Below, one piece after another: positions 32,017-59,553 of a DNA stretch of 64,000 bases. The stretch is from Chitinophaga pinensis DSM 2588 (lineage in GTDB: Bacteria > Bacteroidota > Bacteroidia > Chitinophagales > Chitinophagaceae), in contig NC_013132.1 of NCBI RefSeq assembly GCF_000024005.1, positions 2,660,001 to 2,724,000 on the forward strand, in the 5' to 3' direction. Below the pieces are notes generated by a model. The model did no database searches. It was not told the DNA's origin and saw nothing but the letters and a program-made list of their open reading frames with translations. Within the stretch, counting starts at the first letter, position 1. Each line of letters begins with the position of its first letter. A program made the translations under genes and the position numbers.

Positions 32017-32076
32017 AGGGCAAAAAACGGGAGTAACACCTAGAAATGGTGGGGCTTCTGTTTTTTGCCTTTTTTG
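32017..32076 (+). terminator. Terminator ending the hydrolase cluster
   Basis: AGGGCAAAAAACGGGAG (from about 32017) pairs, with a few mismatches, with CTTCTGTTTTTTGCCT (32055-32070), followed by TTTTTG. A small hairpin CCTGTC/ACAGG precedes it at 31996-32008. Confidence 0.7.
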
Positions 32077-32275
32077 TTTTCTCCTTTTCTACAGCAGTAA
32101 ATACATTTCAAATACTTTTAATTTAATTTTTTGTTATAAAATGCTATACAATAAAAAGAATTGTTACTATTTTATATGTCGAAAAGATGGAGAAAACATT
32201 GTAATGAAAACCCGGAGCCATTAAAACTGCCGTATAATTTGTACCGAGAGGGGCGAATTATATAAACGACGTGAT

Positions 32276-32860: not shown

Positions 32861-33058
32861 TTCGTAAACCCGTGACAGCCTGCCCTTGCATGATAACGAA
32901 AAGCAAGGTCAGTGCTGTTGTACAACTAGAAACATATGTCAATTATCAACCAAAATCACCGTGGACACATTATTAATAAGAATATGTAACAAATTTCGTA
33001 AACACACCCACCCATATACTGAGGAGCGCCGTATTTAGGTTAAATAATCATTAAAATA
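32861..33058. other. Intergenic gap between sigma factor and FecR genes
   Basis: 198 nt without a gene. It contains the inverted repeat CCTTGC (32884-32889)/GCAAGG (32903-32908) with a 13-nt loop and no T-run. No clear promoter was found. Confidence 0.5.
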
Positions 33059-34066: not shown

Positions 34067-34370
34067 GACAAAAGACACATCGCCAACAGTTAACCTGCCT
34101 GATGCCTTAGAATGTACTGAGCATACACATGTATGCTAGCCAGCTTGTTATTTTATTATACGTAGATTAAATATTGCACACAACCAAACTAAATCGCTTT
34201 ATGACGACTCAGGAAAGAACGCCATCCGGTTAACTATACCCTATTTGAGTTAACTCAGTAACGATAAAAATTGAACTGCACCGCAGCTGGTGCCCTATTG
34301 CCCTGGTCCCGCAAGGACTGGTAATGGAATGCTATTTCCCGAACCGAACCAAAATCAAATCATACACGAA
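34067..34370. promoter_or_regulatory. Regulatory region of the SusC/SusD operon, with 7-4-7 palindrome
   Basis: 304 nt without a gene. A perfect palindrome AGCATAC-ACAT-GTATGCT lies at 34120-34137. Just after it are TTG (34145-34147), a 20-bp spacer and TAAATATTG (34168-34176), a loose match to the Bacteroidota promoter, but an ECF promoter for the FecI-like factor may be used instead. The rest shows nothing recognisable. Confidence 0.35.
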
Positions 34371-37300
34371 ATGCTGAAGAAGGCAACCCTATCCCTCCGC
34401 CTGACCGTGCTTGCGCTGCTGATCCTGTTGTCACAGGCCATCGCAGTTCCCGCAAATGCTTCAGGAATACAGGATGCGCTCGACAAGAAGATTTCTCTGG
34501 AACTGAAAAATGTGTTGCTGAAAGAAGCACTCGACCAGATCGGTAATCTCGCAGAAGTCTCTTTTATCTATGCAGGCAACAAAACGATTGTCGGCAATAA
34601 GGTAGATGTAAACGCTCACAATGAAAAAGTGAGCGACCTCCTTAAAAAGCTGCTTAAGCCACTATCACTTTCCTATACGGTTGTATACGACCGTGTAGTG
34701 ATCCGGCCCGTTGAAAAAAAAATGGAAGGCCTCTCCGTACCGGAAAGCGAACGCCAGGTAGCACCCCGTACCCAGGACATAAGAGGTACGGTGGCGTCCC
34801 CAAAAAATGAGGCACTACCCGGCGTAGCTATTATTATTAAAGGGACTAACCGTGGTACTACTACTGATGAAAAAGGTTTTTTTCAATTGAAAGGCGTTCC
34901 TGCCGATGCCATACTGGTATTCAATTTTACCGGATATCAGCAGGAAGAAGTGAGTGTTGCCGCTTATAAAAATGGCGTAATCAACATTCAGCTGAAAGAG
35001 AAAACAACCAAACTGCAGGAAGTAGTAGTGACAGGTTTCCAGGATATTGATAAAAGCAAATTCTCCGGTGCTGCTGCCCGTATTAAAATGGATGAAGCCA
35101 AGATCGATGGTATGGCAGATGTAAGCCGTATGCTGGAAGGACGTGTGGCTGGTGTGGCGATACAGAACGTGTCCAGCACTTTTGGTACAGCGCCTAAAAT
35201 ACGCGTACGTGGCGCTACCTCCATCAATGGTGATAACAAACCACTGTGGGTAGTTGATAACGTGGTACTGGAAGATGTAGTGAATATCTCTAACGACCAG
35301 CTGTCCAGCGGCGACCCGACCACATTGCTGGGTTCTGCTGTAGCAGGTCTGAACCCGAACGATATTGAAAGCTTCGACATCCTCAAAGATGCGGCAGCTA
35401 CCGCATTATACGGCGCACGTGCGATGAACGGCGTAGTGGTGATCACTACCAAGAAAGGACGTTCCGGTTTAAAACCTGTCGTTACCTACAGTGGTAATTA
35501 CAGCACTCAGCTGAAGCCTAACTATAACAACTATAATATCATGAACTCCGCCCAGCAGATGTCAGTACTGGCAGAGCTGGAGCGGAAGGGCATGCTCACT
35601 TCCGATATACTTTCCCGTGGCGATATCGGCGTATACGGTAAGATGTATGAAATGCTGAACGCAGATGATAAAGGTAATTTCCCACTGGAAAATACGCCCG
35701 CTGCAAAACGCAAATTCCTGGAACGTTACGCTTCGGCTAATACTGATTGGTTTGATATCCTGTTTAAGACAAGCTTCATACAGGAACATTCCCTGAGTAT
35801 CTCTAACGGTAATGACAAGGGTCAGTCCTATTTCTCTACCAGCTTTTATCATGACAACGGCTGGACCATTGCAGATAAAGTAAGCCGTTATACGCTGAAC
35901 TTCCGTAATAACTACAAGATCTCTGAAAAAGTGAGCACCGGTTTCTCTGTACTGGGTTCTGCCCGTCAGCAAAGAGCGCCGGGTGCACTGTCCCGTACCA
36001 GTAACCCTGTAGAAGGGCAATACGATCGCGATTTTGACATTAATCCGTTCAGTTATGCCCTTAACACCAGCCGTACCCTGACAGCCTATGATCAGGACGG
36101 AAAACTCGAATATTTCAGAAGGAATTATGCGCCATTCAACATTATTAATGAATCGGCTAATAACTACCTGAACCTGAGTATGATGGACCTGCGTCTTCAG
36201 GGTGATGTATCCTGGAAGGTGACTAAAAACCTGCGTTACGAATTTGTAGGCGCGCTTCGTTATGTGAAATCCTCCCGCGAACACCAGATCACGGAGAACA
36301 GTAACATGGCCAACGCTTATCGTGCAGCGGACAATGCGACAATCGCGGAAAATAACAAATTCCTTTACCGCGATCCGAATAATCCGGATGCATTACCGGT
36401 GATCGTATTGCCTTATGGTGGTTTCTATAACCGTACAGAAGACCAGCTGCTCAACTTCGATTTCCGTAATAGTCTGAATTATAGCACAACGATCAATCAA
36501 CGTCATAGTATTACGGCAATGGTGGGTCAGCAGGTAAAATATGCAGACCGTCAGAATTCATCCAATACAGGTTACGGCTACCAGTATAATAATGGTGGGG
36601 TACCTTTTACCGACTACCGTATCCTTAAACAGACCATAGAGAGCAGCTTCCCATATTATGGTATGGCCAAGGATTATGACCGCTTTGCGGCCTTCTTTGC
36701 AACCGCTACCTATGGACTGGATGGTAAGTATAACCTGACCGGTACTACCCGCTACGATGGTTCCAACAGACTGGGACGCTCCAAGAGCGCCCGCTGGTTA
36801 CCAACATGGAGCGTGTCTGGTTCCTGGAATATCGATAAAGAAGATTTCGTACAGGACCTGGGCTGGGTAGATTACCTGGCGCTGAGAGGAAGTTACGGTC
36901 TGACGGCAAGTCTTGGCCCCGCTACCAACTCCAATATCGTATTCCAGACAGTTAACACGAAAAGAACACACCTCGATGAAGTAGAATCAGTGATCAAGAT
37001 CGCTCACCTTCAGAATGATGACCTGACATGGGAAAAACTCTACACGACTAACATCGGTCTGGATGGTACGCTCCTCAACAGACGACTGAACTTCTCCATC
37101 GATGCATACCGTCGTAATAGTTTTGACCTGATCAGTATCATCAAAACATCCGGTATCGGTGGTGAAACGTTCAAAGCAGCCAACTACGCAGATATGAAAT
37201 CGAAAGGTATAGAACTGCTCGTAGGCGGCGATATCATCAAACGTAAGAACTGGGGATGGAAAACCAGCGTGACCTTCGGTTATAATACCAATAAGATCAC

Positions 37301-38030
37301 CAATGCGAAGAACATCCCGCGCATCTTCGACCTCGTAGTAGCAGAAGGTGGTAACAAAGAAGGTTATCCTGTAAGGGGTCTTTTCTCCCTTGAATATAAA
37401 GGACTGGATCCGCACACCGGTGCACCACAGTTTGTTGACCAGCATGGTGGCCTGAGCAAGGATGTATTCCTGCAGGACCTGAACACGGATCACCTGGTAT
37501 ACCAGGGCCCTGTAGACCCTCCTGTAAATGGTGGTGTAAATAACACCTTCCACTATAAGAGTTTGTCACTGAACGTATTTGTGACTTATCAATGGGGCAA
37601 CAAGATCAGACTCTATCCTGCATTCAAAACAGCTTACTCCGACCTGGATGCAATGCCAAAAGAATTTTATGACCGCTGGATAATGCCGGGTGATGAGAAG
37701 GAAACACAGACACCTTCTATCCTGGATGGACTCGAGCAGGCGTTCCTGGGTGGTGCTTATCCTTACAATAACTATAACTATTCAACTGCCAGGGTAGCAA
37801 AGGGAGATATGATCCGCCTGAAAACGGTATCACTGACCTGGCTGGTACCAGCACCTGTATTGAGAAAAACAGCTTTCAGCAATATCTCAGTAACTGGAGC
37901 GGCTATCAATCCATGGCTGATCTATGCTGACAAAAAGCTGAGAGGACAGGATCCTGAGTTCTTCAACACAGGTGGTGTTGCGCAGCCGATACAGAAACAA
38001 TTTACACTATCCTTAAAAGCAGGTTTCTAA
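34371..38030 (+). CDS. SusC/RagA-family TonB-linked outer-membrane receptor with STN domain
   Basis: About 1219 residues. A signal peptide (LTVLALLILLSQAIAVPANA) is followed by an STN signalling domain (LKNVLLKEALDQIGNLAEVS), a carboxypeptidase-regulatory-like beta-sandwich (IRGTVASPKNEALPGVAIII), a plug domain (KLQEVVVTGFQ ... YGARAMNGVVVITTKKG) and a 22-strand-type barrel to the C terminus. It imports an oligomeric substrate across the outer membrane with SusD, powered by TonB, and the STN domain couples it to FecR. The frame opens at 34290, but ATG 34371 (MLKKATLSL) gives a normal signal peptide. SusD follows after 5 bp. The substrate cannot be read from the sequence. Confidence 0.95.
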   Translation: MLKKATLSLRLTVLALLILLSQAIAVPANASGIQDALDKKISLELKNVLLKEALDQIGNLAEVSFIYAGNKTIVGNKVDVNAHNEKVSDLLKKLLKPLSLSYTVVYDRVVIRPVEKKMEGLSVPESERQVAPRTQDIRGTVASPKNEALPGVAIIIKGTNRGTTTDEKGFFQLKGVPADAILVFNFTGYQQEEVSVAAYKNGVINIQLKEKTTKLQEVVVTGFQDIDKSKFSGAAARIKMDEAKIDGMADVSRMLEGRVAGVAIQNVSSTFGTAPKIRVRGATSINGDNKPLWVVDNVVLEDVVNISNDQLSSGDPTTLLGSAVAGLNPNDIESFDILKDAAATALYGARAMNGVVVITTKKGRSGLKPVVTYSGNYSTQLKPNYNNYNIMNSAQQMSVLAELERKGMLTSDILSRGDIGVYGKMYEMLNADDKGNFPLENTPAAKRKFLERYASANTDWFDILFKTSFIQEHSLSISNGNDKGQSYFSTSFYHDNGWTIADKVSRYTLNFRNNYKISEKVSTGFSVLGSARQQRAPGALSRTSNPVEGQYDRDFDINPFSYALNTSRTLTAYDQDGKLEYFRRNYAPFNIINESANNYLNLSMMDLRLQGDVSWKVTKNLRYEFVGALRYVKSSREHQITENSNMANAYRAADNATIAENNKFLYRDPNNPDALPVIVLPYGGFYNRTEDQLLNFDFRNSLNYSTTINQRHSITAMVGQQVKYADRQNSSNTGYGYQYNNGGVPFTDYRILKQTIESSFPYYGMAKDYDRFAAFFATATYGLDGKYNLTGTTRYDGSNRLGRSKSARWLPTWSVSGSWNIDKEDFVQDLGWVDYLALRGSYGLTASLGPATNSNIVFQTVNTKRTHLDEVESVIKIAHLQNDDLTWEKLYTTNIGLDGTLLNRRLNFSIDAYRRNSFDLISIIKTSGIGGETFKAANYADMKSKGIELLVGGDIIKRKNWGWKTSVTFGYNTNKITNAKNIPRIFDLVVAEGGNKEGYPVRGLFSLEYKGLDPHTGAPQFVDQHGGLSKDVFLQDLNTDHLVYQGPVDPPVNGGVNNTFHYKSLSLNVFVTYQWGNKIRLYPAFKTAYSDLDAMPKEFYDRWIMPGDEKETQTPSILDGLEQAFLGGAYPYNNYNYSTARVAKGDMIRLKTVSLTWLVPAPVLRKTAFSNISVTGAAINPWLIYADKKLRGQDPEFFNTGGVAQPIQKQFTLSLKAGF

Positions 38031-38035
38031 ATAAG

Positions 38036-39496
38036 ATGGTTATGACGAAATTTTTTACAAGAGCATCTATTATCGCAGGATGTTTGATAGCCATGGCCGG
38101 ATGTAATAAATATCTGGATAAGTCGCCGGATAGTACCTGGACAGAACTGGATTCACCTGCAAAGGTATCCCAGTTACTGGGTACCGCTTATCCTCAGGCC
38201 AACTATATTGTGTTTGCAGAAGCCATGTCTGACAATGTGGAAGATAAGGGCGCCGGTGTTACTGACAGAACGAACCTCGATCCTTATTTCTTCAATGATG
38301 TATCCGCTACGGAACAGGATTCTCCGGAATACTACTGGCAGGCCTGCTATGCTGCTATCGCGGCGGCAAACAATGCATTGAAAGCCTGCGAGGCAGCTCC
38401 CGATAAAAGCCGTTACACCGCACAGAAAGGAGAAGCACTGGTGGCAAGAGCCTATGCACACTTTATGCTGGTAACGTTTTTCTCTAAATTCTACGACGAA
38501 GCAACCGCCGCTACTGATCCGGGTATTCCCTACGTAACGGAACCGGAGAAAGTGGTGAATAAACAATATGAGCGTAAGACAGTCGCCTATACTTATCAGA
38601 TGATCGAGAAAGATCTGCTCGCAGGTCTGGCACTGATCAGTGATGAAAATTATGCAGTACCGCGCTATCATTTCAATAAGTCAGCCACTTACGCATTCGC
38701 TACCAGGTTTTATCTCTTTAAGAAAGACTACCAGAAGGTGCTGGAATATGCTAACCAGGTATTCCCTAACAATGACCTGGCCAGCAATATGCGCCCATGG
38801 AATACGACCTATAAAACACTCAGTCCTGCTGCCATCTGGGATACCTACGCTAAGGCAACAGAAAAGGCGAACCTGCTGCTGGTAGAAACCCAGTCTATGT
38901 ATGGCAGGTATGTAGCCCAATACAGATACGGACTGACCTATAATAAACAGATTGAAATACTGGGTAGTAATGTAAGCGGTGGCAGCTATGCATATCCATT
39001 ATACTACTACGGTACAAGAGATTACTTCGTACCAAAACTGACGGAGTATTTCGTAAAAGCATCCGTAAACGCAACGATCGGAGATCCTTATGTAATGATA
39101 CCGCTGTTCACTACAGAAGAAGTATTGTTTAACAGGGCAGAAGCCAATGCTTATCTCGGTAACAATAATGACGTACTGACTGACCTGAATCTCTTCGCCA
39201 GCAAACGTATCACTAACTACAACGCCGCTTCACACAGAATTACACAAACTAAAATCAGGACCTACTACGGTATTACCGATGTAAGGGGCGGTCTGCTGCA
39301 AACCATACTTGATTTCAAACGTGCAGAATATGTACAGGAAGGACACCGCTGGTTTGATATTCAACGCTACAAAGCAGCTGTTACCCATTATACCGACAAA
39401 GGTGCAAAGATGGTACTGGAAACAGGTGATAAACGCCGTGTATTACAGATCCCGTCTTCTGCTACTAATTCAGGTATCACATTGAATCCAAGATAA
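38036..39496 (+). CDS. SusD/RagB-family substrate-binding lipoprotein
   Basis: 486 residues. The lipoprotein signal has lipobox IAMAGC, and the N-terminal CNKYLDKSPDSTW is typical of SusD. The helical SusD repeat region (EALVARAYAHFMLVTFFSKF) and C-terminal core (FKRAEYVQEGHRWFDIQRYK) are clear. It sits on the cell surface as the lid of the SusC barrel and captures the substrate. ATG at 38042 (MTKFFTR) is an alternative start. It lies 5 bp after SusC and 30 bp before the HExxH lipoprotein gene. Confidence 0.95.
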   Translation: MVMTKFFTRASIIAGCLIAMAGCNKYLDKSPDSTWTELDSPAKVSQLLGTAYPQANYIVFAEAMSDNVEDKGAGVTDRTNLDPYFFNDVSATEQDSPEYYWQACYAAIAAANNALKACEAAPDKSRYTAQKGEALVARAYAHFMLVTFFSKFYDEATAATDPGIPYVTEPEKVVNKQYERKTVAYTYQMIEKDLLAGLALISDENYAVPRYHFNKSATYAFATRFYLFKKDYQKVLEYANQVFPNNDLASNMRPWNTTYKTLSPAAIWDTYAKATEKANLLLVETQSMYGRYVAQYRYGLTYNKQIEILGSNVSGGSYAYPLYYYGTRDYFVPKLTEYFVKASVNATIGDPYVMIPLFTTEEVLFNRAEANAYLGNNNDVLTDLNLFASKRITNYNAASHRITQTKIRTYYGITDVRGGLLQTILDFKRAEYVQEGHRWFDIQRYKAAVTHYTDKGAKMVLETGDKRRVLQIPSSATNSGITLNPR

Positions 39497-39526
39497 TAGC
39501 AACCATTCATACAAGAACTCACAGAT

Positions 39527-40438
39527 ATGAAACGTATAAAAATATTCTTCTTGATCCTGACAGTAGCCGCATTCGCAGCCTGTGCAAAGAAAGAAGACGA
39601 CCTCAGTGGTGTGCAAGATATCCCGGGCCTGGGTGGCGATACCTGGGTACCGGGATCTTTAGATGCCTGGTTACACGACACGATGACTGTTCCCTACAAT
39701 ATTGAAGTAAAGTATAAATGGGACCAGTTTGAGTTTGATGTTACCAAGACCCTGGTGCCTCCCAGAGAAGAGGTAGTAATCCCCGCTATCAGGGCGATTA
39801 AAAAAGTGTGGATAGATAATTACATCAGAGAAGCAGGAGCGATCTTCTTCAAGAAGTATTGTCCTAAATTCTTTATCCTGTCAGGTAGCGCCAGCTGGAA
39901 CGACAATGGAACCATTACACTGGGTACGGCAGAAGGCGGTCGTAAAGTAGTGATGTACCTGCTCAATGATTTCCGCACGAAAGAAATGCCAGGATATAAA
40001 AAGAGCGATACCGGAAACGTAAAGCAAATCTTTCATGTAATAGAACATGAATTCGGACATATCCTACATCAGACAGTGATGTACCCGGTAGAATTTAAGA
40101 AGATCTGCGCCGGTTATTACACTGGTAACTGGAACAATATCGCTGATTCCGAAGCAAGAAAAGACGGATTTGTAACAGCATATGCCATGTCCAATGAAAA
40201 CGAAGACTTTGTAGAAATGATCGCTATGATGCTCATAGAAGGAAAAGCGGGCTTTGATAGAATAGTGAACAGCATCCCGGAAGGAACCAGTGTGAATGGT
40301 AGTTCGCAGGCACAGGCAAAAGACAGGCTACGTCAGAAAGAAGCGATGGTAGTGAGTTACTTTAAAACTGCCCATAAAGTCGATTTCTATAGTCTGCAGG
40401 ACAATACCAGAAAATCCATCGTACAGCTGCTTTACTAA
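39527..40438 (+). CDS. Substrate import-associated zinc metallohydrolase lipoprotein (HExxH)
   Basis: 303 residues, with a lipoprotein signal (LTVAAFAACAKK). The zinc motif HEFGHILH (H174, E175, H178) and a later acidic NEDFVEMIAMML, a possible third ligand, match the SusCD-associated metallohydrolase lipoproteins described by TIGR04549. It may cleave a peptide or peptide-bearing substrate at the cell surface before import. The fixed order SusC, SusD, HExxH lipoprotein and DUF4302 lipoprotein is a recognised type of locus in this phylum. Substrate unknown. Confidence 0.88.
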   Translation: MKRIKIFFLILTVAAFAACAKKEDDLSGVQDIPGLGGDTWVPGSLDAWLHDTMTVPYNIEVKYKWDQFEFDVTKTLVPPREEVVIPAIRAIKKVWIDNYIREAGAIFFKKYCPKFFILSGSASWNDNGTITLGTAEGGRKVVMYLLNDFRTKEMPGYKKSDTGNVKQIFHVIEHEFGHILHQTVMYPVEFKKICAGYYTGNWNNIADSEARKDGFVTAYAMSNENEDFVEMIAMMLIEGKAGFDRIVNSIPEGTSVNGSSQAQAKDRLRQKEAMVVSYFKTAHKVDFYSLQDNTRKSIVQLLY

Positions 40439-40471
40439 GCCTTTATCAACCAAGATCAATCAACACTCCTT

Positions 40472-41755
40472 ATGAGAAAAAATCTATCATTATATTTTCT
40501 ACTGATCATCGTCGCACTTGCTTCCTGCCGGAAGGAGTACGATGATGTATTTGATGAATCGCCAGACACCAGGATCAACGAAACACTCGCTGCTTATAAT
40601 AAAACGCTTATAGGCGCTCCGAATGGCTGGAAAGCGCTGGTATATCCTTCCGCCCTGGAAGGAACTGCTTTTGGCTTTTATTTCAAATTTGACAGCAGCA
40701 ACAGAGTGGATATGTTTTCAGATTTTGATTCGGTATCTGCTGTAACTGTACGGACCAGCAGTTTCCGCCTGAAATCATTACAGCAACCTTGTCTGTTGTT
40801 TGACACCTATTCCTATATCCACGTGTTGTGTGATCCGGATGCCAGCAAGAATGGCGGATACTATGGAAAGGGTTTATTTTCTGACTTCGAATTTGCCATA
40901 GACGGCGTCTATGGTGACACCATAAAACTTACAGGACGACTGAATGGCAGTAAAGCCATTTTCGTTAAAGCTACCTCGCAGGAGGCACAGGATTATTACG
41001 ATAAAAAACGGAACTGGGAGTTCAATAAATTTTCCCGGTTCCTTACTTATTTCAAACTGCTGACTGTAGGAAGTAACAAGTACGATATATATGTTGATCA
41101 GCTGTATCGTCGTATTACTTTAAAATGGATCTCCAATAATGGCGAGAAGGAGTTCCGGACTAATTATTATTTCGATAATAATGGTATATCGTTCACGACT
41201 CCTTTCAGAGATGGCGCGGTGTCTTTTGCCAGTTTCTCTGACATCAAATGGGATGTGTCAGCACAGCGTCTGACCATGAAAGCAGGAGAGAATAGTGCGG
41301 TGATTACCAGTTCCATCAAACCCCAGGTACTGGATAAAGAAGCCGGAAAACGCTGGTACAATAGTGCTGCTGCCACTGAAAGCTACTGGGCTTCGCTGAG
41401 CGGTTTTCATGTGGATGGTGTGGACGATGCCTATGGTGTGACAAACATTGCCGGCTTCAACTTCATGTTTTACTACCCCGTTTACGATGGCGAATATGAC
41501 TTTGCAGGTATACTGCCAGCCGAGCGTCCATATGGCCCCGCTTTTACACCAGTGTTCAATACGAATGGTACCGTAACATTTGATTTTTCAGGACTCGCCT
41601 TTGGTCAGATTCCTGAAAATGAATCTGCAACCATTGGCAACATCATTACCAAATATCGGGAAAGTGAAGGCTTTTATTTCGTGCAGACAGGCGAAAGTTC
41701 CTATGACATGGTCAATGCAAAAGATGCCAGAACCTGGATCACCTGGCAGCAGTAA
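40472..41755 (+). CDS. DUF4302-family surface lipoprotein
   Basis: 427 residues. The lipoprotein signal has lipobox VALASC. The start of the mature protein (DDVFDESPDTRINETLAAY, then GAPNGWKALVYP) is characteristic of DUF4302 proteins, which accompany SusCD and HExxH lipoproteins. A role as an extra substrate-binding or handling protein at the surface is inferred from context only. The giant adhesin gene begins 52 bp downstream with no terminator in between, so transcription may continue into it. Confidence 0.85.
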   Translation: MRKNLSLYFLLIIVALASCRKEYDDVFDESPDTRINETLAAYNKTLIGAPNGWKALVYPSALEGTAFGFYFKFDSSNRVDMFSDFDSVSAVTVRTSSFRLKSLQQPCLLFDTYSYIHVLCDPDASKNGGYYGKGLFSDFEFAIDGVYGDTIKLTGRLNGSKAIFVKATSQEAQDYYDKKRNWEFNKFSRFLTYFKLLTVGSNKYDIYVDQLYRRITLKWISNNGEKEFRTNYYFDNNGISFTTPFRDGAVSFASFSDIKWDVSAQRLTMKAGENSAVITSSIKPQVLDKEAGKRWYNSAAATESYWASLSGFHVDGVDDAYGVTNIAGFNFMFYYPVYDGEYDFAGILPAERPYGPAFTPVFNTNGTVTFDFSGLAFGQIPENESATIGNIITKYRESEGFYFVQTGESSYDMVNAKDARTWITWQQ

Positions 41756-41807
41756 TGGCATTCGCCATCGCATTATTTAAAGAAAGAAATACTTAAAACA
41801 AACAGCC

Positions 41808-50750: not shown

Positions 50751-50810
50751 TCTAAAAAATGGTTTTATGGAGAAATGGACATTCAGATCAACCCAACTCT
50801 TTGCTTGCTA

Positions 50811-50857
50811 TTGCTCTCCGCCTGCTGGCGGGAGCAACAGCAGCAGGATGTTGCTCC
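50811..50857 (+). promoter_or_regulatory. Overlapping hairpins around the start codon of the second adhesin
   Basis: Two mutually exclusive stems share GGAGCAA. Stem A is TTGCTCTCCGCC (50811-50822) with GGCGGGAGCAA (50827-50837). Stem B is GGAGCAAC (50831-50838) with GTTGCTCC (50850-50857), a perfect 8-bp stem whose 11-nt loop holds the purine-rich AGCAGGA and the first bases of ATG 50848. This arrangement would suit control of translation between the two adhesin genes. The segment is also open in frame from 50767, so it may instead be coding. Confidence 0.4.
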
Positions 50858-53800
50858 GCAGCTGCTCCGCTGCCTTAATAATCCTGTTAACCTGTTTGCA
50901 AACCTATGGTCAGAATTTATCCAACAGAGGAAAGAGCTTCTGGGTAGGATATGGCCATCACCAGTTCATGGAGCCCAACAGAGGTAACTCGCAGGAAATG
51001 GTACTCTATCTGAGTGCAGAAGAACCTGCCAATGTTACCGTCACGATTGATGGCACCACCTGGTCGAGATCTTATTCAATTCCTGCCAATACTGTTATTG
51101 CAACAGACCAGATCCCTAAGACGGGGACCTTTGACGCAAGACTTTATTCTGTACCGCCCACTTTCGGTGGTACCGGTGGGGAAGGTTTATTCCAGCGGAA
51201 AGGTATTCATATCGTCAGCGACGTTCCTATTGTGGCTTATGCACATATTTATGGCAGTGCTTCTTCAGGAGCGACTATGCTGATGCCGGAGGATACCTGG
51301 GGATATTACTATGTTTCACTGAACAGTCAGCAGGACTACGACTTTGACTGTTTCTCCTGGATGTTTGTAGTAGCGAAAGAAAATAATACAGTAGTTGAGA
51401 TCACGCCTTCCGTACCTACCCGTAATGGTAAATTGCCTGGTGTACCATTTACTGTTACCCTGAACAGGGGAGAGATCTATCAGGTAATAGGTGCATCGCT
51501 TGGTGGAAGTGCCGGACATGAAATGACCGGTACGACTGTCAGGTCAATTGCCAATGTCAATGATACCTGTTTCCCTGTAGCGGTGTTCTCTGGCAGTAGC
51601 CGTACAGCTATTGCCTGTGCCGGTAACTTTGGATCCAGTGGGGATAACAATATTCAACAGGTATTTCCTTCGCAGGCATGGGGAAAACGTTATCTCACAG
51701 CGCCGAGTTCTGTTGATAATACGCCTAGTAGTTTTATGACCAACCCTTATAAAGTAGTGGTAAAAGATCCGACTACTGTGGTAAAACGTAACGGTGTACA
51801 ATTAACAGGTTTGCTGAATAACGCTTACTATGAGTATGAAAGTAGTAGTCCGGACCTGATTGAAGCAGATAAACCCATATTGGTAGCACAGTATATGTCG
51901 TCTACCGGCGCCTGTCCTAATACCGGCGGAGATGGTGACCCGGAGATGGTGTACCTGAGTCCTGTGGAGCAATCCATCAAAAGGATAGGGTTCTACAGAA
52001 ATAACCGGGAGAATATTAATGTGAACTACCTCACGATGATCATACCCACCAATGGTCTGAATACACTGACGATTGATGGTGTGGCTAATTCCTGGAATGT
52101 GGCGGTCCCACATCCGAATATACCGGGTTACTCCGTTGTCATTAAAAGATGGAATGCCACACAGGCCCAATGTATAGTGCAGAGTGATTCTGCCTTTACT
52201 GCTGTGACTTATGGTTTGGGGTCGGTGGAAAGTTATGGTTATAACGCAGGTACGCTCATCAATAACCTGAATGTAATCGGGGTTATCCACAATGAACAGG
52301 ATACCTCATCTTATAAAAATGATTTTACCTGTACACAAACGCCGGTTGAATTGTCCGTGCTGTTGGCATACAAGCCTACGGAGATGCACTGGAATATCAG
52401 TAAACTGGGTAATGTCGTAACGCCTAATGTGGATGTGGCACAGGTGAACCCTTTACCGGTAGGAGAAGAACTGGTGAATGGCGTACCTTATTATAAATAC
52501 ACCTTGCCAGGTACTTACCTTTTCAGCACAATAGGTAAATATGAAATTCCGATTGTTAATACACATCCAAGCATTGAGAAATGCGATCATAAAGAAGAAG
52601 TAAAGATTTCTGTAGATGTAAAACGTAAACCTACTGCTTCGTTTACCACCAACTTCACTGGTTGTACAATGGATACGGTGTATTTCAAAGCGGATAGCAG
52701 TGGTAACGGTTATACTATTGACCGTTGGAAATGGACATTCCCGGGTGGTGTACAGGATAGTGGCGCAATCGTACAACGCAGGTTCCCGGTAGGACAGCAG
52801 AATATTCAGCTGAGTGTGATTTCAAAAGAAGGTTGTCTGGCTGATACGGTAATACCTGTTAGCGTAGTCGCCATCCCTGTCGCTGATTTTACGACAGCGC
52901 CGGCTGCTGTGTGTGAAGGAGGAAGTGTGCAGCTGACGGACCAGTCTACTTACGGAGGCACAGCCCCTATCAAAAACTGGTACTGGAATTTTGGGAATGA
53001 TACAATTGCATCACTTGATAGTGCCGCAGTGCAGAAAGCGAATTACAGTAAATATGGCACTTACACAATCGCGCATGTAGTAAAAGTGAGTGAATTGTGT
53101 GTGAGTGATACGGTGAAGAAAACAATAACTGTCAATGCGAATCCTGTTGTAGGATTTACTTATCCGGATACTTGTCTGCTGGCAACCGGAGAAGTACAGT
53201 TTGTCAGCACAACGACTGTGCCTGACGGACAAGCCATCAGCACCTATGCATGGGATTTCGGAGATGCGAACGCTACTCCAGGCAATCCTAATACCGCTGC
53301 TATTGCGGATCCGTTACACAGTTATTCGCGTTTTGGTACTTATACCATTAAATATGCAGTAACCACTGCGCAGGGCTGTAAGAAAGATACCACTGTACAG
53401 GCCACCTTTAATCTGAAACCGGCCCTGACATTTGGTGCGACATTGCCTGCCGTTTGTATTAATGACAAAACAATCATCTCTGTCGCAAAAGCAAACGTAA
53501 CCAATGGCGTGACGGGCACTGGTATCTACAAGGGGAATGGTGTGTCACAGGCGGGTATATTCAATCCGTTGACAGCCGGCGCCGGTACACATACTGTATG
53601 GTATGTATTTACCGCACAGGGAGGTTGTACAGATTCTATTTCTGCCACCATCACAGTGTATCCGAAACCACAGCCGGTGTTTACTGCCAACGGAGATGTG
53701 TGTCTGGGTGAAGCAGTGAGCTTCGCAGATCAGTCTACCATCAGCACCGGAAATATTGTTACCTGGAAATGGAGCTTCGGAGATGGCACTACAGAAAACC

Positions 53801-54936
53801 GCACGGACAATACCACCTTTAATAAGACTTATACAGCGTGGAAAAACTATAATGCAAAACTGGTGACTGTCAGCGATCACGGATGTATCAGTGATACGGC
53901 TACCAGAACAGTTGCTGTACATGCGCTGCCGGTTCCTGATTTCGCATTACCAACGAATATCTGTATGCCGGAAGGTGCTGCACAGTTCAATAACCAGTCT
54001 GCAGTTCCTGATATGTCAACCCTGGCTTATCAATGGGCATTCGGTGATGGCAGTACCGCAACCGATGCGTCTCCTTTACATCATTACCAGGATGCCGGGT
54101 CCTATACCGTCGTACTGACTGCTACATCCGTATATGGTTGCAGGGCTACAAAAGAAAAAGTACTGGCTGACTTCTATACACAACCGATGGCTGATTTTAC
54201 GGTGTCGCCTGATACACTGTGTCAGGGTGCTGATAATATCTTCACAGACAGGAGTGTGGATGCTAATAATAACATCGTGTCATGGGCATGGACCTTTGGT
54301 GACGGTAGCGGTTCTACAGATCGTAATCCTGTAAAACGCTATACAGAACCGGGAGATTATCCTGTACAGCTGGTAGTTGCCAATGGCGCTGGTTGTGTAT
54401 CCGTTCCGTTTACCAGCAATGTAGTGGTATATCTGCAACCAGTTATCGATGCAGGACCGTCGTTCATTGTTGCCCAGGGCAGCCAGGTAAGATTTGCGCC
54501 AACTGTTAACGACTCTTTACTGAACTTCCGCTGGACACCACCTGATGGGCTTTCTGATCCTACTGTACTGAGACCGGTGCTGAACGCAATGGAAGACCAG
54601 GTATACACACTGACAGCGATAGGAGAGGGAGGTTGTATCGCAACAGACGAAACCTCTGTGAAAGTCTTCAAGAAAGTGAGTATCCCCAATGTGTTCTCTC
54701 CGAATGGCGATCAGATCAACGACAGATGGGTACTGACCAATCTGGCTGATTACGCCGAGTGTACAGTAGAGGTCTTCAATCGTTACGGACAACAGGTATA
54801 CTATTCCGAAGGATATAAGACGCCATGGGACGGCACTTACAAAGGCCATTTATTACCGCAGGCCACTTATTACTATGTCATTAAACTAAACAATGGTACA
54901 GCCCCAATGACAGGCTATGTAGTCATCTTACAATAA
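50848..54936 (+). CDS. PKD-repeat surface adhesin with IgGFc-binding-like N-terminal module and CHU_C domain
   Basis: About 1362 residues from ATG 50848, chosen because it starts right at the signal peptide (LRSCSAALIILLTCLQTYGQ); an ATG at 50767 would add 27 residues. Residues about 30-480 form a module closely similar to residues about 2078-2520 of the preceding giant protein (SFWVGYGHHQF, TLNRGEIYQVIGAS, VKDPTTVVKRNGVQL). Six PKD-type repeats follow, seen as WKWTFPGG, WYWNFGND, YAWDFGDA, WKWSFGDG, YQWAFGDG and WAWTFGDG. The last ~85 residues are CHU_C (VFSPNGDQINDRW). It is exported by T9SS type B, probably with one of the two PorP/SprF proteins encoded downstream. The next gene starts 21 bp later. 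Confidence 0.9.
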   Translation: MLLRSCSAALIILLTCLQTYGQNLSNRGKSFWVGYGHHQFMEPNRGNSQEMVLYLSAEEPANVTVTIDGTTWSRSYSIPANTVIATDQIPKTGTFDARLYSVPPTFGGTGGEGLFQRKGIHIVSDVPIVAYAHIYGSASSGATMLMPEDTWGYYYVSLNSQQDYDFDCFSWMFVVAKENNTVVEITPSVPTRNGKLPGVPFTVTLNRGEIYQVIGASLGGSAGHEMTGTTVRSIANVNDTCFPVAVFSGSSRTAIACAGNFGSSGDNNIQQVFPSQAWGKRYLTAPSSVDNTPSSFMTNPYKVVVKDPTTVVKRNGVQLTGLLNNAYYEYESSSPDLIEADKPILVAQYMSSTGACPNTGGDGDPEMVYLSPVEQSIKRIGFYRNNRENINVNYLTMIIPTNGLNTLTIDGVANSWNVAVPHPNIPGYSVVIKRWNATQAQCIVQSDSAFTAVTYGLGSVESYGYNAGTLINNLNVIGVIHNEQDTSSYKNDFTCTQTPVELSVLLAYKPTEMHWNISKLGNVVTPNVDVAQVNPLPVGEELVNGVPYYKYTLPGTYLFSTIGKYEIPIVNTHPSIEKCDHKEEVKISVDVKRKPTASFTTNFTGCTMDTVYFKADSSGNGYTIDRWKWTFPGGVQDSGAIVQRRFPVGQQNIQLSVISKEGCLADTVIPVSVVAIPVADFTTAPAAVCEGGSVQLTDQSTYGGTAPIKNWYWNFGNDTIASLDSAAVQKANYSKYGTYTIAHVVKVSELCVSDTVKKTITVNANPVVGFTYPDTCLLATGEVQFVSTTTVPDGQAISTYAWDFGDANATPGNPNTAAIADPLHSYSRFGTYTIKYAVTTAQGCKKDTTVQATFNLKPALTFGATLPAVCINDKTIISVAKANVTNGVTGTGIYKGNGVSQAGIFNPLTAGAGTHTVWYVFTAQGGCTDSISATITVYPKPQPVFTANGDVCLGEAVSFADQSTISTGNIVTWKWSFGDGTTENRTDNTTFNKTYTAWKNYNAKLVTVSDHGCISDTATRTVAVHALPVPDFALPTNICMPEGAAQFNNQSAVPDMSTLAYQWAFGDGSTATDASPLHHYQDAGSYTVVLTATSVYGCRATKEKVLADFYTQPMADFTVSPDTLCQGADNIFTDRSVDANNNIVSWAWTFGDGSGSTDRNPVKRYTEPGDYPVQLVVANGAGCVSVPFTSNVVVYLQPVIDAGPSFIVAQGSQVRFAPTVNDSLLNFRWTPPDGLSDPTVLRPVLNAMEDQVYTLTAIGEGGCIATDETSVKVFKKVSIPNVFSPNGDQINDRWVLTNLADYAECTVEVFNRYGQQVYYSEGYKTPWDGTYKGHLLPQATYYYVIKLNNGTAPMTGYVVILQ

Positions 54937-54957
54937 CATCTGAAAATATCGACCAAA

Positions 54958-55965
54958 ATGAGAAATATACTATCTATCATCCTGGTATTGCCCTTTCTGA
55001 TCTTCATAGGGAATACAGCAACAGCACAGACAGATCCGCATTTTTCCCAGTACTATGTGTATCCGTCATGGCTTAACCCGGCGCTGACCGGTGCATTTGA
55101 TGGCCAGTACCGCATTAGCGCCATCTATCGTAATCAATGGGGAAACATCAGCGATCCGTTTACAACGTATGGTGTTGCTGCCGATTTCACTACCAACAAA
55201 CAGTTCAATTTCGGTGCGAGTGTACTGAATCAGAAAGCAGGCGATGGTGGTTATAACTACACAACTGCTTACGGAAGCGCTTCCTACACAGGTGTACGCT
55301 TTGGCGCTGAAGGGTATCATCGCGTGGTGTTCGGCTTGCAGTTCGGTATGATCCAGCGTAAGTTTGATGCCTCCAAACTGACTTTCGGCGATCAGTGGAA
55401 TCCTATTACCGGTTACAATCCGGGTACGCCAAGTGCGGATGGTTTCAGCAGAACGTCTTCCACTTCTTTTGATGCAGGAGCAGGCGTGTTGTATTACGAT
55501 GCGGAACCAGGAAAGAAGTATAACATTTTTGGCGGTTTCTCCGTATCGCACCTGACACGTCCGACTGATCAGTTCAGCGTTAGTGGTGATGCACGCTTCC
55601 CTATGCGTTTTACAGGTCACGCAGGTGTGAAACTAGCTGTGACGGATGCCATCAGCGTAACGCCTAACGTTCTGTACCTGAGACAGGGTAATGCAGAAGA
55701 GAAAATGGCGGGTGCTTACGGACAGTTATTTGTAAATCCGATCACAGACGTATTGCTGGGTGTCAACTACAGGTTCAAAGATGCGGTATCCACACACGCC
55801 GGTTTTACTTACAAGAGTTTTACACTGGGTGTAAGTTATGATATCAATACCTCTGAACTGAGCAAGATGGCAAGAGGCTCCAACAGCTTTGAACTGTCGC
55901 TCACCTTCATTGGCAGAAAGCTTTTCAGATCACAGGAAGTGGAGTTTGTTTGTCCGCGTCTCTAA
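54958..55965 (+). CDS. PorP/SprF-family T9SS outer-membrane protein
   Basis: 335 residues with a signal peptide (ILVLPFLIFIGNTATAQ) and the family opening DPHFSQYYVYPSWLNPALTG. Amphipathic beta strands follow to the C terminus (FTLGVSYDINTSEL, then FELSLTFIG). It is likely the export or attachment partner of the adhesins encoded immediately upstream, by analogy with SprB-SprF of Flavobacterium. It differs clearly in sequence from the other two family members in this window, which suggests separate specificity rather than recent duplication. Confidence 0.93.
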   Translation: MRNILSIILVLPFLIFIGNTATAQTDPHFSQYYVYPSWLNPALTGAFDGQYRISAIYRNQWGNISDPFTTYGVAADFTTNKQFNFGASVLNQKAGDGGYNYTTAYGSASYTGVRFGAEGYHRVVFGLQFGMIQRKFDASKLTFGDQWNPITGYNPGTPSADGFSRTSSTSFDAGAGVLYYDAEPGKKYNIFGGFSVSHLTRPTDQFSVSGDARFPMRFTGHAGVKLAVTDAISVTPNVLYLRQGNAEEKMAGAYGQLFVNPITDVLLGVNYRFKDAVSTHAGFTYKSFTLGVSYDINTSELSKMARGSNSFELSLTFIGRKLFRSQEVEFVCPRL

Positions 55966-56003
55966 TATGAACCTCATCCGTCAACACGTATCAAAAGAAG
56001 AAC

Positions 56004-57788
56004 ATGAAACGTATTTTTCTTACCATAGCAATGTTTTCAGCAGTAGCCATCAGCAAGGCACAGGTAGCCTACAACTACCTGAGAGCTGCTGACTATTACT
56101 ACAAGAATGCAGAATATAGTTCTGCTGCACCTTATTATGAAAAATACCTGGCAGGCGCCAGGAAGATTGTAAGCGACGCAGCATACAGACCTTATAATAC
56201 ACAAGCCTCTGCAAAGAAGTCGCTGGCAACGGTGAGCAGTGAACAGCAGGCTATTTACAAACTGGCAGAAAGCTACCGCCTCCTGCACGATTACAGCAAG
56301 GCTGTACCCTGGTATGCAGAAGCCACTGAGTTTGATAAAACAGCTTTTCCGTTGGCAGGTTATCACTATGCGGTCGCACTCCGTGCCCTGGGAAGACATG
56401 AGCTGGCAGAGAAAGCATTTACTGATTTCCTGACTTATTATACTGTAGAAGATAATTACCGCGCTACCGCACAGCGTGAATTGCAGAATCTGCGTTTTGT
56501 AATCGCTGAAATGGCTAAACCTGATCTGAACCTGTATAAGGTAGAGAAGGCGCCTACAGTGATCAATCCTGTAGGAGCCAACTACGCGCCGGTATGGTAT
56601 AAAGAAAATGTACTGGTATTCACTTCTACCAGACCAGATAAGGATGTAAAAGGACATGCCTTCGTAAACCGTCTGTATAGCGCGGATTATACAACAGGAC
56701 AGCCTGATACTGTCCGCCATCTGGACATCCCACAACCTAAAGATGTGGACCAGGGTGTGATGGCCCTGACGCCTGATGGGAATACATTATTCCTGACCCG
56801 CTGGACAGTAAAGCAGGGTAAGAAAAGTGCGGCTATTTACAGCAGCAAGAAAACAGGCGATACCTGGACTGAGCCTGTTATACTTGATACTGTGCTTAAC
56901 GTGCCCGGGTTCAGCGCACAGCAGCCTTTTGTAACTCCTGATGGCAAGCGCCTGATCTATGCGAGTGACAGACCCGGCGGCGCGGGCGCATTTGATCTCT
57001 GGGAAGCAGAGCTGAATGGAGAAGGCACGCCTTTCTTTACAAAGAACCTGGGACCAGTTGTGAACACCCCATGGAATGAAGAAGCGCCCTATTACCATGC
57101 AGCTTCCGGTTTACTGGTATTCTCTACTGATGGTCGTGTGGGTATGGGTGGATTTGATTTCTTCTATTCAAAAGATTCAGCAGGTGCATGGTCCGCACCA
57201 GTGAATTTTGGTTATCCGGTGAATTCTGTCAAGGATGATATGTACTTCACCAGTAAGGGCAGTAAAGAAAATATTCTGGAATCGGTATGGCTGTCTTCTG
57301 ACAGAGATGCTGCCTGCTGCCTGGAACTGTTTTCACTGAAGAAGGTAGTACCACCGCCGCCGCCACCTCCACCAGCACCAAAGCCCGAACCACAGATTAT
57401 TGCACTGGAGCCGCCAACAACCGATGGACCTATTGTGCTTGAAAATGTGTACTACGACTTCAACGAGTCTTATCTGCAACCTGCTTCTTTCCCTTCACTG
57501 GACAGACTGGTAGCAATGCTGAAGAAGTATCCTAAGATCGTGATCGAGCTGAGTGCGCATACGGATAGTAAAGGTTCAAATGACCTGAACGAAAAATTAT
57601 CTGATGCACGTGCGAAGAGCTGTGTAGACTACCTGGTAAGTCAGGGTATTGAAAGTACCCGTCTGCAGGCAAAAGGATACGCTGCTTCCCATCCGGTAGC
57701 ACCAAACACCAATAAGGATGGTTCTGATAATCCTGAAGGCCGTGCGCGTAACCGTAGAACGGAATTCAAGATTCTCAGCCGCGAATAA
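56004..57788 (+). CDS. OmpA-family protein with TPR and PD40 repeats (PorE-like layout)
   Basis: 594 residues. Signal peptide (FLTIAMFSAVAISKAQ); TPR-like helices (about 20-165; YKLAESYRLLHDYSKAVPWY); PD40 propeller repeats (about 190-430; MALTPDGNTLFLTRW, LIYASDRPGGAGAFDLWEAE); a short polyproline hinge (VPPPPPPPPAP near 448); and an OmpA C domain (about 475-594; HTDSKGSNDLNEKLSDARA) with the peptidoglycan-binding Asp and Arg. It probably anchors the adhesin export complex to the cell wall. It has the same architecture as the 778-residue protein at 18445 but a much shorter linker. Gaps to its neighbours are 38 and 32 bp. Confidence 0.92.
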   Translation: MKRIFLTIAMFSAVAISKAQVAYNYLRAADYYYKNAEYSSAAPYYEKYLAGARKIVSDAAYRPYNTQASAKKSLATVSSEQQAIYKLAESYRLLHDYSKAVPWYAEATEFDKTAFPLAGYHYAVALRALGRHELAEKAFTDFLTYYTVEDNYRATAQRELQNLRFVIAEMAKPDLNLYKVEKAPTVINPVGANYAPVWYKENVLVFTSTRPDKDVKGHAFVNRLYSADYTTGQPDTVRHLDIPQPKDVDQGVMALTPDGNTLFLTRWTVKQGKKSAAIYSSKKTGDTWTEPVILDTVLNVPGFSAQQPFVTPDGKRLIYASDRPGGAGAFDLWEAELNGEGTPFFTKNLGPVVNTPWNEEAPYYHAASGLLVFSTDGRVGMGGFDFFYSKDSAGAWSAPVNFGYPVNSVKDDMYFTSKGSKENILESVWLSSDRDAACCLELFSLKKVVPPPPPPPPAPKPEPQIIALEPPTTDGPIVLENVYYDFNESYLQPASFPSLDRLVAMLKKYPKIVIELSAHTDSKGSNDLNEKLSDARAKSCVDYLVSQGIESTRLQAKGYAASHPVAPNTNKDGSDNPEGRARNRRTEFKILSRE

Positions 57789-57820
57789 GCCTATGCACAC
57801 CACTAAAAAACAAAAAGCTT

Positions 57821-58852
57821 ATGAAAAGAAAACCATTGTTGCTGCTGTTGCTGGTAGTCTTATCGCAGGGCTTACATGCACAACAACAGCCGCACTATAC
57901 ACAGTATATCCTGAATCCTTTCATTATCAACCCCGCAGTGGCTGGTATTGAAAACTACTGGGATGTAAAGGCAAGTCACCGTCATCAGTGGACAGGACTG
58001 AACGGAGCGCCGGTGACGACTTACCTGACAGTGCATGGTCCGCTTCGCAAAAGCGATTACCCTGTGGCCAGTGTAACCGGTTTAACCCCTCCGGGAGATA
58101 ATCCCAGGGGGCGGGCGTACTGGCAGGAGTACACCACTCCGCCGGCACATGCGGGTGTAGGCATGACCATCTTAAATGATAAGACAGGCCCGTTGAACAG
58201 GTTCTCCATCAGTGCAACATATGCACATCATATTCCACTGTCAACAAGACTTAGCGTTAGCGGAGGTATCTCTGTAGGTATGCAGTCTGTATCTGTAGAT
58301 GCAGCTAAGTTACAGTTCCAGCAACCAGGCGACCCGGTAGTAGCATCGAGTGCACTGCTGAATAAATGGAGACCTGAAGTGAATGCAGGACTATTGTTGT
58401 ACGGCCCGGATTTTTATTTAGGTGCGGCCGCCCAGAATATCGTTCCCCAGGAGGTTGCTTATGATAATGGTAAAGTAGTGGGCGATTCTCTTTACAGAGG
58501 GAAGCTGGTGCCGCACCTGTTTTTCTCAGGTGGTTACAGATTATGGCTGAGCGAAGATTTTACCATGCTGCCATCTGTGATGGTCAGACTGGTAACCGCA
58601 GCGCCGGTAAGCTATGATGTAAACGCAAAATTCATGTATCGTGACCGCATGTGGGTAGGAACTTCTTATCGTGTGAAAGATGGTTTTGCTGCTATGGTGG
58701 GCGTGAATATCAGTTCCACTATTAATATCGGCTATGCCTACGATTACACAACCTCTTCCCTGAATGCAGTCAGCAAGGGCACACATGAGATACTGATCGG
58801 TTTCCTGATTGGTAACCGCTACGGCGACCTGTGTCCCCGGAATAATTTCTGA
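57821..58852 (+). CDS. PorP/SprF-family T9SS outer-membrane protein, second copy of the cassette
   Basis: 343 residues, signal peptide (LLLLLLVVLSQGLHAQ) and family opening PHYTQYILNPFIINPAVAG. A loop rich in Pro, Gly and Thr (about residues 90-110; LTPPGDNPRG) is longer than in the other copies. The C-terminal strands NIGYAYDYTTSSL and HEILIGFLIG are typical. Two different PorP/SprF genes beside two CHU_C adhesin genes suggest one partner per adhesin, which is inference. Confidence 0.92.
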   Translation: MKRKPLLLLLLVVLSQGLHAQQQPHYTQYILNPFIINPAVAGIENYWDVKASHRHQWTGLNGAPVTTYLTVHGPLRKSDYPVASVTGLTPPGDNPRGRAYWQEYTTPPAHAGVGMTILNDKTGPLNRFSISATYAHHIPLSTRLSVSGGISVGMQSVSVDAAKLQFQQPGDPVVASSALLNKWRPEVNAGLLLYGPDFYLGAAAQNIVPQEVAYDNGKVVGDSLYRGKLVPHLFFSGGYRLWLSEDFTMLPSVMVRLVTAAPVSYDVNAKFMYRDRMWVGTSYRVKDGFAAMVGVNISSTINIGYAYDYTTSSLNAVSKGTHEILIGFLIGNRYGDLCPRNNF

Positions 58853-58923
58853 TCAACGGATGGAATAAACAAGCTAATAATTTATTAAACCAAACATCTT
58901 AATTAAAACACAAACAATTACTT

Positions 58924-59484
58924 ATGAAACGAATTTCCAGTTTTTTCTTTGTCGCAGTTATGTTCTCTTTAATGGTAGGTATGGCTTCCTGCGGAAAGGA
59001 TGGTGATGTAGGACCTGCAGGACCAGCCGGTGAAAATGGATCTAAAGGCGACAAGGGAGATAAGGGAGACAAAGGTGACGCAGGTTCTGCGAATATTATC
59101 TACTCCGAATGGCTTGAAACACAATTCGCACTGGATACTGCCAGCGGTGAATACGAATGGGGTGTTGAAGTACCTGAAATTACCAGTGAAGTACTCAACA
59201 CAGGACTGGTGAAAATCTATTTTAATCTGTACCTGGCTACAGATCCATTAATATCATCTGTGCCTTACGTAGAGGGAAGTCTGTATATCAGAGATTTACT
59301 GACTGAAGGTGGATTGATACTGTTGAGCAACGCCAATGTAAGTACACAGACGAACTCCTCTGGTCAGAAGAGATTCCTGGTAAGATATGTGATTATTCCA
59401 GGTGCTGCCGCAGGACGTGTGTCCAAAGGTATCAACTGGGATAACTATGCTGAAGTAAAAGCTTACTTCGGTCTGAAGAACTAG
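58924..59484 (+). CDS. Collagen-like-repeat lipoprotein
   Basis: 186 residues. The lipoprotein signal is FSLMVGMASC. Directly after the lipidated Cys come ten uninterrupted Gly-x-y triplets (GKDGDVGPAGPAG, then GSKGDKGDKGDKGDAG), able to form a short collagen-type triple helix. A globular C-terminal domain of about 125 residues follows, of no family I recognise. A trimeric stalk lifting a head domain off the membrane is the likely form. It is the last gene of the adhesin run, 71 bp after PorP/SprF and 40 bp before a terminator, which suggests a surface-structure role. Confidence 0.85.
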   Translation: MKRISSFFFVAVMFSLMVGMASCGKDGDVGPAGPAGENGSKGDKGDKGDKGDAGSANIIYSEWLETQFALDTASGEYEWGVEVPEITSEVLNTGLVKIYFNLYLATDPLISSVPYVEGSLYIRDLLTEGGLILLSNANVSTQTNSSGQKRFLVRYVIIPGAAAGRVSKGINWDNYAEVKAYFGLKN

Positions 59485-59523
59485 TTTACTAATGACCATC
59501 TCCATCAAAACCACATGTAAGAT

Positions 59524-59553
59524 GGCTGCTTTATCCAGGGCGGCCGGTTTTTT
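59524..59553 (+). terminator. Terminator ending the importer-adhesin run
   Basis: GGCTGC (59524-59529) pairs with GCGGCC (59540-59545; one G-U pair) around a 10-nt loop and is followed by GGTTTTTT. Confidence 0.65.

Follow-up and report, generated by a model that had tools for sequence, protein, structure and literature searches.

A conserved gene run joining a SusC/SusD importer to giant type B adhesins in Chitinophaga pinensis: a probable extension of a published fungal-wall locus

Introduction

Can a single locus encode both the import of a glycan and the surface proteins by which a bacterium may hold on to its source? The question is raised by a 64,000-nucleotide stretch of Chitinophaga pinensis DSM 2588 (GCF_000024005.1, contig NC_013132.1, positions 2,660,001 to 2,724,000), hereafter the window, in which ten consecutive genes on the forward strand lead from a SusC transporter to a collagen-like lipoprotein (34371-59484), with two giant predicted adhesins between them. 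The explanation that we favour, with some reserve, is that this run is one conserved unit which arose by insertion of an adhesin cassette into an import locus, and that in C. pinensis it represents the unrecognised downstream part of FCWUL, a published locus (Cpin_2184-2192) that ends at SusD (PMC10449523).

Results

The gene run in the window

Positions refer to the window, and Cpin_ tags were assigned by gene order (for Cpin_2184-2188 by order and domains). The run, its upstream regulators and the elements that follow it are listed below, with the basis of each assignment in brackets.

32276-32860, + strand: FecI-type extracytoplasmic function (ECF) sigma factor, Cpin_2189 by order (Pfam, NCBIfam)
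33059-34066, + strand: FecR anti-sigma factor, Cpin_2190 by order (Pfam FecR and FecR_C)
34269-34344, + strand: conserved structured leader upstream of SusC (covariance model, relatives)
34371-38030, + strand: SusC/RagA TonB-dependent transporter with N-terminal STN signalling domain, Cpin_2191 by order (Pfam, NCBIfam)
38036-39496, + strand: SusD, Cpin_2192 by order (Pfam)
39527-40438, + strand: substrate import-associated zinc metallohydrolase lipoprotein (Peptidase_Mx1, TIGR04549), hereafter Mx1 (Pfam, NCBIfam)
40472-41755, + strand: DUF4302 lipoprotein (Pfam, structure model)
41808-50750, + strand: adhesin 1 (Adh1), 2980 aa, with weakly similar repeats that have beta-helix matches, IgGFc_binding, PKD, Ig_7 and a C-terminal CHU_C domain, a type B signal of the type IX secretion system (T9SS) (Pfam)
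50848-54936, + strand: adhesin 2 (Adh2), 1362 aa, with IgGFc_binding, five PKD_4 and CHU_C (Pfam)
54958-55965, + strand: PorP/SprF-family shuttle a (Pfam, NCBIfam)
56004-57788, + strand: PorE-like protein with PD40 propeller, OmpA domain and weak TPR matches (Pfam, NCBIfam)
57821-58852, + strand: PorP/SprF-family shuttle b (Pfam, NCBIfam)
58924-59484, + strand: collagen-like lipoprotein, hereafter Coll (Pfam, score below cut-off)
59523-59553, + strand: intrinsic terminator, hairpin 59523-59546 and T run to 59553 (similar hairpins in several relatives)
59593-60174, + strand: second ECF sigma factor, hereafter Sig2, just past the terminator (Pfam)

The spacings along the run are 5, 30, 33, 52, 97, 21, 38, 32 and 71 bp, the fifth shrinking to 16 bp if adhesin 2 starts at a possible alternative upstream ATG (50767). 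The initial annotation, made from the sequence alone, had described ten same-strand genes with 5-97 bp between them and a first clear terminator at 59524-59553; open reading frames and coordinates bear out both, the hairpin lying at 59523-59546 with its T run to 59553. Its gene names agree with Pfam, except that the collagen repeat match of the last protein falls below the cut-off (PF01391, 24.5 vs. 27.2 bits), for which reason it is called collagen-like only. Similarly, the product of 56004-57788 is named PorE-like only because it scores under the PorE cut-off (NF052230, 245.6 vs. 600 bits), with PD40 and OmpA found and TPR matched weakly.

The STN domain of SusC scored 31.0 bits against a cut-off of 28.4 when the N-terminal 140 residues were scanned alone, and was absent from the matches at E 0.001 in the whole-protein scan. 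Mx1 matched TIGR04549 with 299.9 bits (cut-off 75), carries the HExxH motif as HEFGH in its translation, and has relatives in the PDB (4l7a, 9urd), while the DUF4302 protein can tentatively be described, from a confident structure model, as three calycin-like barrels. Adhesin 1 contains long, weakly similar internal repeats (approximately 28% identity) with right-handed beta-helix matches. Both adhesins end in CHU_C and adjoin PorP/SprF genes, as expected of T9SS type B substrates, and an ECF sigma factor, a FecR anti-sigma factor and an STN domain on the transporter provide a complete signalling set.

Conservation of the linkage between DUF4302 and the adhesins

Linkage was surveyed in a first set of 36 Chitinophaga genomes and in a later set of 22 further genomes of the genus, searched after the pattern had been noticed; a second G028 copy with the same score, from a different contig (the assembly has a listed contamination of 7%), was counted here and kept out of the trees. 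The first set held 29 IgGFc_binding pairs in 22 genomes, 28 of which had DUF4302 upstream on the same strand at 7066-7140 bp, domain to domain. One more linked group was found in G064, and 18 of 20 groups of the later set were linked at 7043-7159 bp (once 7902 bp). The initial annotation had proposed a search of related genomes for such co-occurrence, and had counted halves that are never adjacent against a joint unit; in the genus as a whole, DUF4302 immediately precedes 47 of 50 groups at a near-fixed distance, the exceptions being G267, which has a single adhesin, G008 and one of the two groups of G264. Because it recurs across the genus at near-constant distance, the adjacency is, on this genomic evidence, far beyond chance.

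Of 99 genomes positive for IgGFc_binding besides that of the window, DUF4302 was sought in 80, where IgGFc_binding counts are those among the matches listed. Outside the genus, DUF4302 lay by an IgGFc_binding pair, among the matches listed, in two of the 79 genomes of the family searched for both, the two belonging to genus g93; a search of 23 genomes from other families gave no DUF4302.

Intact loci fell into two classes, class I with 22 loci read, the window included, and class II with six paralogous loci in genomes carrying a class I locus as well (the region upstream of G019 and one class II locus, in G026, were left out). Class I has the order FecI-FecR-SusC-SusD-Mx1-DUF4302-Adh1-Adh2-PorP-PorE-like-PorP-Coll-Sig2, and class II keeps the same order from SusC to Coll. 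At the G008 locus, most of the import part has been lost and the adhesin genes are still open; before them lies a natural in-frame chimera (L017 10773-12044), in which the STN and carboxypeptidase-regulatory regions of SusC are fused to the C-terminus of Mx1, without HExxH.

Each part also exists on its own. We examined 28 DUF4302 loci unlinked to adhesins, 21 from the genus, including a third copy in the window genome and covering 24 of the 43 unlinked matches of the first 36 genomes, and seven from other genera. The order SusC-SusD-Mx1-DUF4302-Coll without adhesins was present in 11 of the 28, four of them in other genera, with the caveats that Coll lies 981 bp after DUF4302 in L115 and that the match in L119 spans 38 residues only. 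Conversely, seven Adh1-Adh2 pairs without DUF4302 were read in other genera, comprising four full five-gene cassettes, one lacking the second PorP and two with adhesins only; no Mx1, DUF4302 or Coll was found near any of the seven. In G061 and G225, from two other genera (L087 12738-19707; L091 1976-8905), the full cassette stands behind an unrelated alginate lyase-SusC-SusD-esterase locus, at 488 and 473 bp that contain a hairpin and a T run, and the two parts there appear to be neighbours and not one unit. The adhesin cassette may have been drawn to SusCD loci more than once, and the simplest history suggested by these gene orders is its insertion, once or twice, between DUF4302 and Coll.

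Spacing, terminators and trees

With gene starts set by homology, DUF4302 and Adh1 are separated by 21-74 bp in all 28 Chitinophaga joined loci read. Terminator-like hairpins were found in one of 270 internal gaps (18,606 bases) and in 14 of the 30 stretches that follow Coll (3,834 bases), against 0.3 and 0.13 matches, respectively, in shuffled sequences. This corresponds to 0.05 vs. 3.65 hairpins per kb, a contrast which persists although the stretches after Coll are longer; internal stretches of at least 95 bases had a match in only one of 42. In the first 60 bp past Coll only one of 30 loci had a match, so the terminators sit further downstream. A stricter scan of the gap between DUF4302 and the adhesin found no terminator-like site in any of the 30 joined loci. 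Trees of the import half and the adhesin half, built from 30 loci, had 26 of 27 splits in common, and the distance correlation of the two halves was 0.94, a value reached by none of 1,000 permutations.

Through conserved adjacency, short gaps, an almost complete lack of internal terminator-like sites and congruent trees, the comparative data support the view that the two halves behave as one unit, which upholds the comparative side of their joining in the initial annotation. We further infer co-transcription from SusC to Coll.

Relation to the published locus

The enzyme genes of FCWUL and a further surface cassette lie upstream of the run.

21099-31988, + strand: FCWUL enzymes ChiA, the 25384 gene, ChiB, Glu16A and the 29910 gene (Pfam, PMC10449523)
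15582-20781, + strand: second type B cassette, comprising a CHU_C/DUF11 surface protein, PorP/SprF (17381-18418) and an OmpA/PD40 protein (18445-20781) (Pfam, synteny)

By Pfam, ChiA has two GH18 domains and CBM5, ChiB is a GH18-CBM6 and Glu16A a GH16-CBM6 protein; the 25384 gene encodes a putative peptidase and the 29910 gene a putative M12-like metallopeptidase, both with crystallin matches below cut-off. Glu16A (28699-29868) is without a T9SS tail and the other FCWUL enzymes carry one, as also remarked in PMC10449523. The window thus combines a SusC/SusD pair with glycan-active enzymes, as expected of a polysaccharide utilisation locus, and the enzymes are likewise present in nine relatives. 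The SusD product has been reported to bind beta-1,3-glucans (PMC10449523), and chiA, chiB and glu16A rank among the genes most induced on fungal necromass (PMC11497827, where accessions of public C. pinensis RNA-seq on necromass and on glucose are listed). According to one group, C. pinensis is not readily made tractable (PMC13070061).

The initial annotation knew of no described system of this composition. This needs correction, as the published FCWUL closes at its 3' end with FecI, FecR, SusC and SusD (PMC10449523), and all that appears to be undescribed is the continuation beyond SusD, with eight further genes: the main text of PMC11497827 names Cpin_2184-2192 and does not name Cpin_2193-2201, and our search of the open-licence literature found no paper on Cpin_2193 to Cpin_2196 (tags past 2192 being obtained by counting).

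In the tree, the enzyme-bearing class I loci group as a single clade of ten, all of which carry the block, with variants: G013 and G035 lack a ChiB match and have an additional ChiA-like gene, and G064 lacks a match to Cpin_2185. Relatives of the 15582-20781 cassette precede ChiA and the enzyme block in all ten enzyme-bearing loci read, and this cassette may belong to the same fungal-wall programme. In the 20 kb upstream no enzyme block was found in the five class II loci tested or at G129, where one weak ChiB-like match lies on the opposite strand (other enzyme families were not sought, here or in the comparisons below).

FecI/FecR control and the leader RNA

Placing the whole run under the FecI/FecR pair, as the initial annotation did, holds in part. 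FecI and FecR lie upstream in all 22 class I loci and in both g93 loci, in the latter at only 25-27% identity, and no relatives of FecI/FecR or Sig2 were found within the stretch examined of the six class II loci. An STN region is missing from SusC in all six, so that it goes together with FecI/FecR in 22 of 22 class I and in none of the six class II loci. Control by FecI/FecR is therefore likely, from gene content, in one paralog class only, namely class I, with its STN-bearing SusC and leader RNA. In such systems, STN-FecR-FecI signalling leads to induction by the substrate of the transporter, and beta-1,3-glucan is thus the predicted inducer in C. pinensis. In L009 and L010, a paralogous class II locus lies approximately 0.6 Mb away on the same chromosome, with no FecI/FecR relatives nearby. 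Sig2 (59593-60174) follows the run just past the terminator; it is found downstream of Coll in all 22 class I loci and in G008, and its relatives were not found within the stretch examined of the two g93 loci.

The leader (34269-34344) consists of a CTGC/GCAG stem and a covarying hairpin, then CTATTTCCC, and is conserved before class I SusC. A covariance model built from 22 sequences found a single strong copy in the window genome (80.9 bits, against 19.6 for the next best) and matches in 39 of 60 genomes of the genus, that of G025 (22.5 bits) probably by chance; in 16 genomes outside the model, the leader lies 13.9-15.1 kb upstream of the IgGFc_binding domain of the first adhesin. In the model-building set 93.0% of cells pair, vs. 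21-48% in slid controls. Among 18 matches from model-independent genomes the figure is 97.9% vs. 24-49%, with seven of 11 pairs changed on both sides, in an alignment whose fitting to the model biases it towards the structure. By one measure, that of further pair types, neither set was above shuffles. The leader search gave no match at E 1 or better by the SusC of three class II loci, by that of the two g93 loci or at the G008 locus. Against Rfam 15, the whole window had no match at gathering score, and 34000-34500 only InvR (E 0.55, opposite strand), far below it. The leader is possibly a new regulatory RNA family. In three genomes it is doubled, approximately 210 bp apart (L161 165-454; L160 171-461; G024:C15:562695-562983), the second L160 copy being weak (21.7 bits).

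Discussion

Starting from the observed gene order, domains, conservation and leader structure, a mechanism can be proposed that we consider rather more probable than its alternatives taken together. An older import operon, SusC-SusD-Mx1-DUF4302-Coll, would have received the cassette Adh1-Adh2-PorP-PorE-like-PorP between DUF4302 and Coll. SusD would bind beta-1,3-glucan at the surface, in line with its published binding (PMC10449523), loading of SusC would be relayed by the STN domain to FecR, and FecI, once freed, would drive the SusC-to-Coll transcript together with the leader RNA. PorP proteins serve as binding partners of type B proteins and are tethered to peptidoglycan by PorE (PMC9143113); in Flavobacterium johnsoniae, a PorE-linked type B C-terminal domain (CTD) gave static anchoring (PMC12618676). 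Since the run has the same type B/PorP/PorE-like arrangement, its adhesins are, by analogy, predicted to be fixed: exported through the T9SS, they would be collected by both PorP proteins, attached to peptidoglycan via the PorE-like protein, and would keep the cell attached to the fungal wall during feeding by enzymes and SusCD. The scheme predicts that the adhesins are induced by glucan, what ligand they have, that they are statically anchored and what role the leader plays. Its furthest form is a nutrient-gated adhesion operon, in which a beta-1,3-glucan sensor (SusCD/FecI/FecR) and a new, genus-specific leader RNA would switch on, in one long transcript, the importer together with two giant, wall-anchored T9SS adhesins, the grip being made only when the fungus is tasted; we offer it tentatively, and lean slightly against it.

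Several observations weigh against the proposal. The converse linkage is weaker, as 43 of the 71 DUF4302 matches in the first set of 36 genomes lie apart from adhesins. Class II keeps the run without FecI/FecR or STN, hence this control is not essential to it. The congruent trees indicate co-inheritance and not co-transcription, because linked inheritance alone can yield congruence, and 16 of the 30 joined loci have no terminator after Coll by our scan. The enzyme block was also missing from the 20 kb upstream of all 11 sister-clade loci read (of 12) and of G008, where the substrate may for this reason not be the fungal wall; on this distribution, the chitinases and the glucanase make up an accessory block confined to one subclade.

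This last point bears on the alternative that survives best, although we consider it improbable: one operon whose giant proteins are not fungal-wall adhesins and serve instead in cell-cell holding, as a cell coat, or in the processing or capture of polymers by their beta-helix domains. No domain names a ligand, the beta-helix and IgGFc_binding matches defining none, and the sister loci do without the fungal-wall enzymes; in the C. pinensis subclade, however, the run is found together with chitinases, a beta-1,3-glucanase and a beta-1,3-glucan-binding SusD (by order), so that adhesion of the giant surface proteins to the fungal wall is what we would infer there.

Two neighbouring operons, SusC-DUF4302 and Adh1-Coll, transcribed separately and adjacent by shared ancestry without common control, would be a still less likely arrangement. 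The DUF4302/adhesin gap of the window contains a weak five-pair hairpin with a T-rich tail (41755-41768) under a loose scan, there is room for inner promoters between Adh1 and Adh2 in nine of the 30 joined loci (387-448 bp) and between DUF4302 and Adh1 in g93 (285 and 434 bp), and in G061 and G225 the cassette is a separate unit behind another SusC-SusD locus. Unlike those two, however, the joined Chitinophaga loci all have short DUF4302-Adh1 gaps, and none of the 30 has a terminator-like site there under the stricter scan. Moreover, Coll belongs to the import locus in 11 relatives and would here be cut off from it, and the run itself is free of the rearrangements that its upstream flanks show between subclades. 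SprB-type gliding adhesins, moved over the surface, are very improbable: CHU_C signals and adjoining PorP/SprF genes would suit them, but here the two PorP genes flank a PorE-like gene, whereas the moving substrates of F. johnsoniae have no PorE-like gene encoded alongside them and a PorE-linked CTD was anchored statically there (PMC12618676).

If the reading of the run as one unit holds, the published locus would be redrawn, with SusC to Coll as its conserved core and the chitinase/glucanase block as an accessory of one subclade. Nutrient sensing and T9SS surface adhesion would be linked in one unit, and the adhesins would gain a testable target.

Comparison with known systems

The window agrees with the published FCWUL in order and domains over 21099-39496, with SusC, SusD and the ECF sigma and anti-sigma factors among the shared genes; FCWUL stops at SusD, whereas the conserved run continues eight genes beyond, and across class I and class II loci SusCD is accompanied more constantly by the adhesin cassette than by the enzymes. 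Loci with SusCD, TIGR04549 and DUF4302 share the SusC-SusD-Mx1-DUF4302 core, in many relatives without adhesins, and the run differs from them by the adhesin cassette between DUF4302 and the collagen-like lipoprotein. FecI/FecR systems with STN-bearing TonB-dependent transducers likewise have a sigma factor, an anti-sigma factor and, as here on SusC, an STN domain; by contrast, surface adhesins are predicted to be under control in this locus, and a conserved structured leader precedes SusC. Finally, the type B CTD/PorP/PorE cassettes of Porphyromonas gingivalis (PG1035-PorP-PorE) and F. johnsoniae (Fjoh_3952-3951-3950) resemble the run in having CHU_C proteins by PorP/SprF and PorE-like OmpA genes, while the run is distinguished by two giant substrates, two PorP genes and its setting inside a SusCD import locus.

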